Origin: Stenotrophomonas sp. ESTM1D_MKCIP4_1
GTDB taxonomy: Bacteria; Pseudomonadota; Gammaproteobacteria; Xanthomonadales; Xanthomonadaceae
DNA length: 64,000 bases
NCBI RefSeq assembly: GCF_003086895.1
Contig: NZ_CP026004.1
Span: 3,446,731 to 3,510,730 of the forward strand
Direction of reading: 5' to 3'
Of the stretch, positions 2,572 to 5,472 are shown one piece after another. Position numbers and translations under genes: made by a program. A model generated the notes under the pieces. That model saw only the letters and a list, made by a program, of their open reading frames with translations, did no database searches and had not been told where the DNA came from. Each line of letters opens with the position of its first letter. Position 1 is the stretch's first letter.

Positions 2572-3674
2572 CCGCCGTTGCCCTCAGCCGCAGCTGCAGC
2601 CGGCGCTTCGACCGGTGCGGTACCGCTGGCCGGCGCCGCGTTGGTCGCCGCGACCTTCAGGCCGGCGCGCAGCTTGCCGGTGCCATCGACGACGATGCGT
2701 TCACCGCCCTGCAGGCCCTGGCGGATCTCGACCACGCCCGCACGACGTGCGCCGGTGGTCACGTCCACGCGTTCGACGGTGTCATCGGCCTTGATGCGGT
2801 ACACGAAGGTATCGCGGCCGACCTGCACCACGGCGATTTCCGGCACCACCAGCGCCGGGCGCTCGGGGCGGAACAGGCGCACGTCCAGCAGCATGCCCGG
2901 GCGCAGCGCGTGGTCGCTGTTGGCGAAGTCGGCGCGGACGGTCACCGCGCGGGTGGCCGGATCGATGCGCGCATCGATGGTGGTCACGTCACCTTCAAAG
3001 GTGCGCCCCGGCCAGGCCACGCTCGTTGCGCTGACCTTGTCGCCGAGGGAAAGCGCGGCCATTTCCACTTCCGGCACCTGGAAATCGACGTGCATGCGCT
3101 CGAGGTCATCCAGGGTGGCGATGACCGTGGTGGGGGTCAGCAGCGTGCCCGGGCTGACCTGGCGGATGCCCAGCACGCCGGCGAACGGCGCACGCACGCG
3201 GCGGTCACCGATGTCCGCCTGCATCTGCGCCACGCGCGCTTCGGCGGCGTCGCGGATCGACTTCTGGGTATCGAGGGTGGCGCTGGACACGAGGCGCTGG
3301 ATGGCCAGCTCACGCTGCCGCTTGTACAGCTGGTCGGCTTCGTGGAAGGTTGCCTGCGCCTGCACCAGCGCGGCTTCCTGGGCCTGCCCGCGCAGGGTTA
3401 CCAAGGGAGCACCCGCGGCAACCTGCTGGCCACTTTCAAAGTGCACGCGCTCGACGATCTCGCTGACCTTGGCGGTGACGCTGATGGATTCACGTGCCTT
3501 GGCCGTACCCAGCGCCTGCAGGGTGTCGTTCCACTGCGAGGGCTGCACGACCTGCGCGGTGACCGGCACCGCTTCGCCCTGCCGACGCGCGGCGGCCTCC
3601 TGTTTGCCTGCGCACCCGGCCAGGACGGCCAGGCAGAGGCCAAGGGCCAGGGTCGAAGTGATACGAGCCAACAT
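2568..3674 (-). CDS. RND efflux periplasmic adaptor (membrane fusion) lipoprotein
   Basis: The 368-residue product links the RND permease to an outer-membrane channel. It starts at MLARITSTLALG and has a lipoprotein signal ending in LAVLAGC at about residue 21, so it should be anchored by lipid to the inner membrane. Next come a biotinyl-lipoyl-like half-motif, an alpha-helical hairpin (about residues 90-150), the second lipoyl half (VRAPFAGVLG) and beta-barrel and membrane-proximal domains. The last 25 residues are rich in Ala, Pro and Glu. The frame stays open to an earlier ATG at 4079, but that extension has no family counterpart and lies partly in repeat DNA, so the start at 3674 was chosen. 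The gene is first in the operon, upstream of the permease. Confidence 0.93.
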   Translation of the reverse strand: MLARITSTLALGLCLAVLAGCAGKQEAAARRQGEAVPVTAQVVQPSQWNDTLQALGTAKARESISVTAKVSEIVERVHFESGQQVAAGAPLVTLRGQAQEAALVQAQATFHEADQLYKRQRELAIQRLVSSATLDTQKSIRDAAEARVAQMQADIGDRRVRAPFAGVLGIRQVSPGTLLTPTTVIATLDDLERMHVDFQVPEVEMAALSLGDKVSATSVAWPGRTFEGDVTTIDARIDPATRAVTVRADFANSDHALRPGMLLDVRLFRPERPALVVPEIAVVQVGRDTFVYRIKADDTVERVDVTTGARRAGVVEIRQGLQGGERIVVDGTGKLRAGLKVAATNAAPASGTAPVEAPAAAAAEGNGG

Positions 3675-3937
3675 GAAAGGTCCTGGTTGATCCACGGCCG
3701 CCGAGTGTAGGCAAGGGGCTGCGAAGACGATATGTGCCAAGCGTTTACCGGCGTGGAACGGGCCATGCGGTAGCGCCATGAACCCCTTCCGTGCAAGGCT
3801 CCCGGGGGCAGTGTCGACGTATGTCGGGATGTATCCAGGGGCACTTTGTCGTGCGCTGTCATCGTACAGTCGAGTCTGCTTGGCAGAGGGCGCCAGGCGG
3901 GGGTCGGCCCTGGCGGGGTCCGGCCCCGTTTTTTTTG
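3675..3937. other. non-coding leader of the efflux operon
   Basis: No convincing gene is present in these 263 bases. They should contain the promoter of the efflux operon, but no clear -35/-10 pair could be chosen. A GC-rich stem followed by eight T residues (about 3900-3936, plus-strand sense) resembles a terminator. No plus-strand gene lies upstream of it, so it may belong to the repeat that starts at 3938. Confidence 0.4.
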
Positions 3938-4142
3938 GGTCTCGGCAGGGCTTGCAGCCCTGCACCTGCAGAAGCCAGAGCCGAAGCAACAGCAGAAGCG
4001 GGCTATCCGTGGGATGGCGGGGGGGGGTCCGGTTGAGGGGGACGGCGTGAATCCGTCCATGGAGCCTCGGTCGCGCCATCCATGGCGCTCACGCCCCCTC
4101 AACCGGACCCACCCCGCCTTCGACAGTTTCCTGCGAGCTGTA
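3938..4142 (+). repeat. structured intergenic repeat, copy A (inverted relative to copy B)
   Basis: A composite palindromic element of about 205 nt. It opens with a small hairpin around GGGCTTGCAGCCC (3949-3961). A conserved CCGTGGGATGGCGGGG stretch follows and leads into a long stem: the 5' arm is at 4016-4041 and the 3' arm at 4094-4118, pairing with one internal mismatch. The 52-nt interior (4042-4093) carries its own hairpin, GCGCCAT-CC-ATGGCGC, at 4073-4088. Homology to copy B resumes after the stem, up to about 4142. No protein is encoded. Confidence 0.8.
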
Positions 4143-4163
4143 GGAACCTGCTGCTGATGGTGG

Positions 4164-4184
4164 GTGCCGACCGTTGGTCGGCAC
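4164..4184. repeat. short palindrome of the GTGCCGACC type
   Basis: Perfect 9-bp inverted repeat (GTGCCGACC, loop GTT, GGTCGGCAC). It resembles the stems of SMAG elements but lacks the GTAG end. It lies between the two large structured repeats. Confidence 0.7.
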
Positions 4185-4215
4185 CGATGAATTCATTCGA
4201 TATCTGACGGATTTC

Positions 4216-4238
4216 ATCCACGCATGGCGTGGATCTAC
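4216..4238 (-). repeat. SMAG (GTAG) palindromic element
   Basis: ATCCACGC and GCGTGGAT arms around a 3-nt loop, with CTAC on the plus strand (GTAG on the minus strand). It is flanked by imperfect direct copies of TCGATATCTGAC at 4198 and 4266, which could mark an old duplication around the insertion. Confidence 0.85.
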
Positions 4239-4280
4239 TGGCCAAGCCCTGACCCCAGATGAATATCGATATCTGACAGA

Positions 4281-4482
4281 TACAGCCGCCAGCCAACTGT
4301 CAGAGGTGGGGCGGTGTGGGTGGGCAGGACCGTTGGCGCCATGGATGGCGCCATCGAGCCCCCATGGATGGGTTTACGGCGTGTCCTGACCACCCACACC
4401 GCCCCGCCATCCCACGGAATGCCCGCTGTTGCCTTTGACGTTGACGTCAGCAGGTGCAGGGCTGCAAGCCCTGCCGAAACCC
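4281..4482 (-). repeat. structured intergenic repeat, copy B (inverted)
   Basis: Same architecture as the element at 3938-4142, in opposite orientation. The long stem arms are 4308-4330 and 4383-4405 (23 bp, one mismatch; the 3' arm can be read to 4408 to match the 26-nt arm of copy A). They enclose a 52-nt interior (4331-4382) that is identical to copy A at about 42 of 52 positions. The hairpin around GCTGCAAGCC and the block CCATCCCACGG are shared with copy A. It ends seven bases before the stop codon of the LysR-type gene. Confidence 0.8.
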
Positions 4483-4488
4483 CACCCC

Positions 4489-5472
4489 TCAGACCGTGAT
4501 GGTCTGGGTCAGCGATTCCCACGTCGGCGGCACCGGCCATGCGGCGGCCTGGTTGCCATCCAGCACCCGCCGCAGGTCGCGCGGATCGATCTGTGGCGCC
4601 AGCACATGCACCAGCTCCAGCGCGTAATCGCGCAGCACCCGGTCGCGCGGCAGCACCGCCCATGCGATGCACTCGGTGATCGGTTCCGGCGCCGGCCACG
4701 CGCGCAGGTCTTCGTCGTTGGAACTGACCGCCATCTCGGCCAGCAGGCCCACGCCCAGGCCCGTGCGTACATAGGTCTTGATCAGGTCGGCATCCAGCGC
4801 GGTCAACGCCAGGTCCGGTACCAGGCCGCTGCCCGCGAAGGCGCGCTGCAGCGAAGAATTGGGGCGGGTGGAGGATTCGTAGCTGATCAACGGCTGGCGG
4901 GCCAGCGCGGCCAGGTCCGGGGCGCGACCGGCGCGGTCCAGCGGGTGGCCCTTGGGCACCACCACCAGCCGCCGCCAGCGGAACAACGGCACCGCGATGC
5001 CATCGGTCGGCTCACCACCGGCCGTGCTGATGATCGCGATATCCGCATCCCCCTGGTTCAGGCGGTCCAGCGCATCCGCCTCACCGGCCTGTTGCAGGTG
5101 CACGCTCACCTGCGGGTACGCCTGCTTGATTGCCGCCACCGCTGGCGGCAGCACGAAGCGCGCCTGGGTGTGGGTAGTGGTCAGGATCAGCTGGCCCTGG
5201 CTCTCGCGCCGCTGGTTCGCGGCGTAGGTGCGGATGTTGTTGGCCTCGGCCAGCACCGCGCGGGCGCGGGAAATCACTTCGGTCCCGGCCGGCGTGACCG
5301 ATTCCAGGCTGCGCCCCTTGCGTACGAACAGCAGGAAGCCCAGCTCGTCCTCCAGCTGCTTGAGCTGCTTGGACAGGCCGGGCTGGGTGGCGTGCACGCG
5401 CGATGCCGCGAGCGTGATGTTCATCTCGGCATCGGCGATGGCAACCAGGTAGCGCAGCTGGGTAAGCGTCAT
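4489..5472 (-). CDS. cysB: LysR-family regulator of the CysB type
   Basis: The 327-residue product is close to the 324 residues of E. coli CysB. An N-terminal winged helix-turn-helix (about residues 1-60, TQPGLSKQLKQLEDEL) is followed by the CysB effector-binding domain. The conserved blocks TTTHTQARFVLP and DADLIKTYVRTGLGVG are characteristic of the CysB/Cbl subgroup, which binds O- or N-acetylserine and activates sulfate assimilation and cysteine synthesis. It is transcribed divergently from cysM, which supports a role in controlling cysteine biosynthesis and its own gene. Assignment to the CysB subgroup is strong. Whether it is the only CysB of the genome cannot be told from this window. 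Confidence 0.88.
   Translation of the reverse strand: MTLTQLRYLVAIADAEMNITLAASRVHATQPGLSKQLKQLEDELGFLLFVRKGRSLESVTPAGTEVISRARAVLAEANNIRTYAANQRRESQGQLILTTTHTQARFVLPPAVAAIKQAYPQVSVHLQQAGEADALDRLNQGDADIAIISTAGGEPTDGIAVPLFRWRRLVVVPKGHPLDRAGRAPDLAALARQPLISYESSTRPNSSLQRAFAGSGLVPDLALTALDADLIKTYVRTGLGVGLLAEMAVSSNDEDLRAWPAPEPITECIAWAVLPRDRVLRDYALELVHVLAPQIDPRDLRRVLDGNQAAAWPVPPTWESLTQTITV

Follow-up and report, generated by a model that had tools for sequence, protein, structure and literature searches.

The window analysed here, a stretch of 64,000 nucleotides from Stenotrophomonas sp. ESTM1D_MKCIP4_1 (genome G000), holds two inverted copies of a structured element between two minus-strand genes, a membrane-fusion-type one starting at about 3674 and a LysR-type one whose stop is at 4489, both named from reading of their ORFs. 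An earlier note on this DNA had described long stem arms that differ between the copies and pair within each, and had offered folding of an RNA, folding of a single-stranded DNA (ssDNA) intermediate or arm copying as the cause. The locus thus raises the question of what keeps the arms paired, and on which strand.

Architecture and distribution of the element

We use O for the strand of the covariance model and O′ for its complement. Module A spans 3938 to 4142, with O on the plus strand and the presumed functional strand, O′, on the minus strand; module B spans 4281 to 4482, with O on the minus strand and O′ on the plus strand. Both were delimited by sequence and fold, and the covariance model matched them at 4008-4126 (genome positions 3450738-3450856) and 4297-4416 (3451027-3451146), respectively. 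The outer parts (3937-3986 and 4433-4482) are 84% complementary, and each module has an outer hairpin, GCAGGGCTTGCAGCCCTGC at 3945-3963 on the plus strand in A and its counterpart at 4456-4474 on the minus strand in B. The 52-nt interiors, at 4042-4093 in A and 4331-4382 in B, are equal in length and share 42 of their 52 positions, and 12 of the 26 positions differ between the 5′ arms of A and B, all of which agrees with the earlier description. Outer hairpin and stalk are joined by linkers, here at 3964-4010 and 4420-4455, that consist of variable near-trinucleotide runs (AGCAACAGC / GTTGACGTTGACG), as they do in other units.

Read along O, the stalk arms defined by pairing lie at 4016-4041 (5′ side) and 4094-4119 (3′ side) on the plus strand in A, and at 4383-4408 (5′ side) and 4305-4330 (3′ side) on the minus strand in B. 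Each arm indeed pairs within its own copy, but the reported single mismatch per stem was slightly optimistic: without gaps, 2 of the 26 pairs in the stalk of B are mismatched, and the stalk of A has 1 mismatch in 22 pairs, or 4 in 26 when left ungapped, owing to a one-base slip. The folds beat 200 of 200 shuffles both for A (z = -5.15) and for B (z = -6.28). The element encodes no protein and is distinct from the GTAG repeats, as had been proposed; the GTAG repeats sit in the spacer between A and B (4143-4280), where sequence and REP consensus forms place REP-type repeats at 4159-4184 and 4216-4238.

BLAST searches of the genome with B and with A each returned at least about 40 places, in overlapping lists. 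An alignment of 68 distinct copies from G000 (A1) gave a three-way consensus structure of a stalk, P1, and hairpins 1 and 2, so that the module is about 120 nt long, with a stalk of about 28 bp bearing two short hairpins. With the covariance model (R1, E ≤ 0.001, opposite-strand echoes removed) we counted at least 105 modules in G000, a lower bound, as scoring covered 150 of the 5,376 candidates from the first look. The modules form 64 clusters, comprising 39 pairs, 24 singles and one tandem triple, and all 39 two-module clusters face inward. Module spacing within pairs is 117-435 nt, with a sole exception of 848 nt that encloses a KDPG-aldolase-like gene. A and B are thus two modules that face inward and form a single dimer of the dispersed element; the dimer unit, the loop motif described below and the spread of the family across a class go beyond the earlier note. 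Inward pairs are also frequent outside G000 (L158, L171, L213, L220, L221 and L241, with a +-+-+- array at L214), and other arrangements occur there as well (++ at L156 and L170, -+ at L169). The triple (L037, G000:C1:2436945-2437745) has three modules of the same orientation in tandem with a 341-nt period and is a possible VNTR locus. Modules at L030, L108, L118 and L315 carry a hairpin-rich insert of about 80-100 nt inside the hairpin 1 loop, as if a second small element targeted this loop; a different insert lies within a hairpin-2 loop at L320.

With G000 included in each sample, matches were found in 49 of 61 genomes of the genus, many with at least 59 matches per genome, in 37 of 149 genomes and 15 of 54 genera of the family, and in 45 of 274 genomes and 40 of 221 genera of the class Gammaproteobacteria. 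All 31 positive genomes among the 398 of the phylum sample fall within the same class. Genomes of the S. maltophilia complex have modules behind the LysR gene, with arms and cores that differ among strains; modules also follow this gene at six Xanthomonas loci (L156, L158, L169, L170, L171 and L173). Longer IS-like inserts, recognised from translated starts, lie within or beside the dimer at this site in L112 and L118. A contig titled Bacillus subtilis (L140) carries a LysR-type relative that is 88% identical and ranks among the Stenotrophomonas loci; it is probably a contaminated or mislabelled assembly.

An Rfam scan of window positions 3400-5100 returned no family at gathering score, and in 15 further loci tRNA alone reached it, the known CsrB and RsmX/Y/Z families not being matched. 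Matches to microRNA, Ysr224 and C4 in the window were all below gathering score and were taken as chance. Six core strings were absent from the literature searched by text, and the family is undescribed in the literature searched, including the available portions of PMC3733652, PMC12889724, PMC7652899 and PMC7694677. We regard it as solid that the copies belong to a class-wide family of structure-conserved dispersed elements for which no description was found.

Stalk pairing and its strand polarity

We further investigated how far the stalks are held together by compensated changes. In A1, 97.2% of 2,174 stem cells pair, compared with 79.3% after shuffling; 26 of 32 pairs covary through two-sided changes, compared with 15.8; and the covariation score is 0.458, compared with 0.152. 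None of 500 shuffles reached any of these values, which together with the folds of A and B excludes chance pairing, and the covariation signal was lost when partner columns were slid by 1-3. The compensated changes seen in two copies therefore extend to 68, and the outcome that the earlier note had named as counting against its proposal, many copies with no covariation in the arms, is the opposite of what was found. Stalk length in a set of 89 non-redundant modules ranges from 19 to 37 positions, with a median of 28, and in distant families the arms appear unrelated and still pair. At the LysR site, the first module showed 56 two-sided and 15 one-sided differing pairs over 23 close strain pairs and the second 7 and 5 over 11, counts that are rough because the strain pairs share history and the arm register differs between some strains. 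In L322, the G002 counterpart of the dimer at 3578323, the hairpin-2 stems are rewritten in A and T with the loop kept (AAAAAC-ATCCAT-GTTTTT), which is an extreme compensated change. A possible origin of the arms by copying from flanking target DNA was unsupported, as conserved flanks stand beside unrelated arms in the Stenotrophomonas copies inspected by eye.

Pairing by itself treats both strands alike, but the rare mismatches do not. The 89 modules were taken from 155 of 186 alignment rows, after which near-identical rows were removed, and their stalks contain 2,339 Watson-Crick pairs, 69 others and 14 gaps. Raw mismatches were A-C on O, equivalent to G-U on O′, in 75 cases and G-T on O in 7; counted as distinct events with their neighbours, they amount to 54 G-U and 7 A-C on O′. 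Fifteen further modules (15 of 21 rows of alignment A4; 3 without recognisable hairpins and 3 of odd length were dropped) gave 17 G-U and 3 A-C on O′. In 40 modules of other families (A5) the polarity was clearly weaker (31 and 15). When G000 modules were split by genomic strand, G-U exceeded A-C on O′ by 18 to 1 on the plus strand (n = 32) and by 19 to 4 on the minus strand (n = 34), so the polarity is not a replication-strand effect. For the 89- and 15-module sets and the strand split, the loop finder accepted a loop only if its two central bases were pyrimidines. A model built on O favours G-U on O, and the observed bias toward O′ is thus opposite to that of the model. As a control, REP hairpins in the same DNA showed no polarity (4 vs 7 distinct events in 112 copies).

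Taken together, these data point to O′, the complement of the strand read in the earlier note: either O′ is the strand on which folding counts, be it RNA or ssDNA, or it is the one that bears a transcription-type mutation bias. Of the causes offered earlier, folding of one strand is thereby favoured, and symmetric arm copying is unlikely to account for everything. The polarity does not separate RNA from ssDNA: G-T pairs are also tolerated in DNA hairpins, so that the polarity alone fits ssDNA too, and the share of G-U among O′ stalk pairs, about 3% (75 of 2,490), is low for an RNA stem.

Loop motif and candidate functions

On O′, hairpins 1 and 2 each present a six-base loop, A-N-G-G-A-N, on a closing C-G pair. 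In A the loops read ATGGAC (hairpin 1, 4055-4060) and ATGGAT (hairpin 2, 4078-4083) on the minus strand; in B both read ATGGAT (hairpin 2, 4341-4346; hairpin 1, 4364-4369) on the plus strand. By a search that prefers the motif, ANGGAN is possible in both hairpins of 196 of 238 distinct modules; the distance from one loop start to the other is 23 nt in 181 of these modules and stays within 22-25 nt in all 196. The second base of the hairpin 1 loop is free (T126, G52, A20, C9), the A, GG and A are kept, and the sixth base is mostly a pyrimidine (C115, T90, A1, G1). With no letter filter, ANGGAN was found in hairpin 1 in 50 of 63 rows of A3 and A4 and in hairpin 2 in 57, fractions lowered by the opposite-strand echo rows that A2-A4 include (and, in A4, by partial rows). 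In A5, the most independent set, the corresponding counts were 34 and 33 of 40 rows, and hairpin 1 has the form AC[ANGGAN]GU in 31 of the 40 modules. Minimum free energy folds of O′ for the 89 modules placed the motif in both loops in 42 cases, in one loop in 33 and in neither in 14. Conservation along the module peaks in the loops and joints.

These features resemble binding sites of CsrA/RsmA. According to passages of PMC7652899, the SELEX consensus is RUACARGGAUGU, with ACA and GGA fully conserved and loops mostly of six nucleotides, the hexaloop contacted by RsmE is ANGGAN, where N varies, and sites separated by 10-63 nt are bridged by CsrA. The A5 form of hairpin 1 matches both this consensus and the RsmE hexaloop, the motif lies in the loops of short hairpins, and the 23-nt spacing of the two sites falls within the bridging distance. 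The core of the CsrA/RsmA reading is that this match occurs on the strand that the stalk mismatches had singled out independently. CsrA (PF02599) was found in 54 of 58 element-bearing genomes, including 49 of the 50 that are at least 90% complete; G397, element-bearing and 98% complete, had no CsrA match. Its occurrence in 16 of 18 element-free genomes means that the presence of CsrA hardly discriminates.

We hypothesized that O′ works in single-stranded, folded form, most probably as RNA, and that the long stalk, its sequence nearly immaterial as long as it pairs, would present two short ANGGAN hairpins onto which a CsrA/RsmA dimer could dock. On the sequence evidence, no other single reading covers loops, spacing and polarity as well as an O′ RNA element that docks CsrA/RsmA, and we put the chances that this reading is correct at about even. 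The computations establish the family with its fold, its covariation and its strand polarity, the motif and spacing of the loops, the geometry of the dimer and the differences between species in whole units; from these features we infer transcription of O′, binding of CsrA/RsmA and a regulatory effect. The O′ RNA might have one of three sources: read-through from opposing genes, the other module of the dimer, or its own start; as the modules of a pair face inward, read-through from either side would carry one module in the O′ sense. The approximately 100 modules could then serve as scattered CsrA/RsmA docking or titration sites in 3′-UTR and intergenic RNA. Gene orientation gives no support for O′ and weighs against the O′ RNA reading: among 76 modules of other species, co-directional flanking genes run with O in 25 cases and with O′ in 12 (30 contexts are convergent, 8 divergent and 1 undetermined), where gene strands come from a simple composition score and individual calls may be wrong, and the ratio for single modules in G000 is 6:6. 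The minimum free energy folds, in which fewer than half of the modules show the motif in both loops, also count against this reading, as do the low G-U share and the weaker polarity in A5.

The main rival to CsrA/RsmA docking is a mobile ssDNA element of REPIN-like kind, in which one strand folds, a strand-specific transposase reads loops and joints, and the dimer moves. The polarity fits a folded ssDNA strand, all G000 pairs face inward, and presence is patchy, with 12 of the 61 genus genomes free of matches and matches in about a quarter of those of the family sample. Species also differ in whether a gene-flanked site holds the whole unit, as we saw when the joined flanks of ten G000 units were searched in 12 relatives and four sites were aligned. 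Unit-free sites were found for 2521333 in G008, for 1055846 in G003 and, by alignment, G008, for the dimer 3083109 in G002 and G003, and for the dimer 3578323 in G003 and G004. These sites differ across the whole intergenic stretch, where insertion is not separable from deletion, and at the four sites aligned with and without the unit no target duplication, the mark of a MITE-type insertion, was recognisable. Against mobility, G000 has six Y1-transposase loci with no module within about 1.5 kb of any of them, and a Y1_Tnp match, the enzyme searched for, is absent from 16 of 56 element-bearing genomes (and from 7 of 16 element-free ones), so that a Y1 transposase is not required. At the loci inspected the elements share no gene. 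Plasmid and phage collections gave no match (E ≤ 1e-5), with one exact core pattern on one viral contig. We consider ssDNA mobility unlikely, though a serious contender. An autonomous element between modules was looked for in three inward pairs of the class sample, whose modules lie about 1.3-2 kb from each other, and no transposase was seen: the interiors at L244 and L245 are ordinary genes by ORF reading (aroA-like and GspE/PilB-like), and at L243 (1166-2681) the approximately 1.5 kb between inward-facing modules has no ORF of at least 120 aa.

Two further explanations dispense with a binding partner. Quasi-palindrome correction is established for bacteria, and replication template switching could copy arm onto arm with no selection on folding. 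In line with this, transversion pair switches are as common as transitions in A1 (for example, G-C 40 and C-G 27 at columns 36-89, and C-G 38 and G-C 30 at columns 71-80), and one-sided intermediates are rare. Such correction leaves three features unaccounted for, namely the bias toward one strand, the invariance of loops and joints and the uniform 23-nt distance between loops; as a neutral explanation of the element it appears rather improbable, but it may well act in addition. Alternatively, the modules could be generic 3′-end hairpins that terminate transcription or protect mRNA ends and have no dedicated binding protein, as many lie no more than about 100 nt from the 3′ end of a gene and they are frequent between convergent genes (the 30 of 76 above). 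Yet no T-run follows the stalks of the copies inspected by eye, conservation is highest in loops and joints, and a palindromic stem would need no strand polarity, and we regard this explanation as improbable.

Returning to CsrA/RsmA docking, we tentatively propose, with somewhat less than even confidence, that the class-wide repeat is a self-contained RNA docking device, combining a sequence-free stalk with two CsrA/RsmA loops at bridging distance, and acts as a regulatory sponge. If so, as the repeat spreads or is lost, entire genomes would have their Csr/Rsm network rewired or titrated, and REP-looking, seemingly inert intergenic repeats in many Gammaproteobacteria would be hidden high-copy CsrA/RsmA sites; the element would also be a direct, testable candidate in searches for RsmA-binding RNAs in xanthomonads. 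Even without CsrA, stems that are free in sequence but kept paired, the polarity and the fixed loops amount to a natural experiment on compensatory evolution, and the family merits a curated entry.

Comparison with known systems

ERIC/IRU sequences are enterobacterial repeats of more than 100 bp, imperfect palindromes that are intergenic and dispersed, and our element is like them in size, palindromic form and placement. The difference rests on an indirect comparison, a search of 20,395 E. coli records in which the core had no match (E ≤ 1e-5).

CsrB/RsmZ-type sequestering RNAs, as known from parts of PMC7652899 and general background, likewise carry several ANGGA-loop hairpins on one RNA strand. 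In contrast to them, our element has two loops on one long hypervariable stalk, occurs in about 100 dispersed copies and lacks an Rfam match in the 16 loci or stretches scanned. RsmU of Xanthomonas campestris, as described in sections of PMC7694677, resembles it as a 3′-UTR RNA with GGA motifs that binds RsmA, but is a single locus behind comEA, of 77 nt plus a terminator. RsmU was rejected as a member of the family, as none of six comEA loci examined has a module (E ≤ 0.5).

REP, BIME and REPIN sequences, including the GTAG repeats of S. maltophilia (SMAG), are dispersed intergenic palindromes as well, often in pairs of opposite orientation and mostly downstream of genes, according to portions of PMC3733652 (see also PMC3116915). 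The association with RAYT transposases that marks REP/REPIN systems has no counterpart at the Y1 loci of G000, and the GTAG/CGTC tag is absent from the stalk end. REP-type repeats measure 20-40 bp, whereas our element is about 120 nt long and folds into three helices, with hypervariable arms around a conserved core that is shared across a class.
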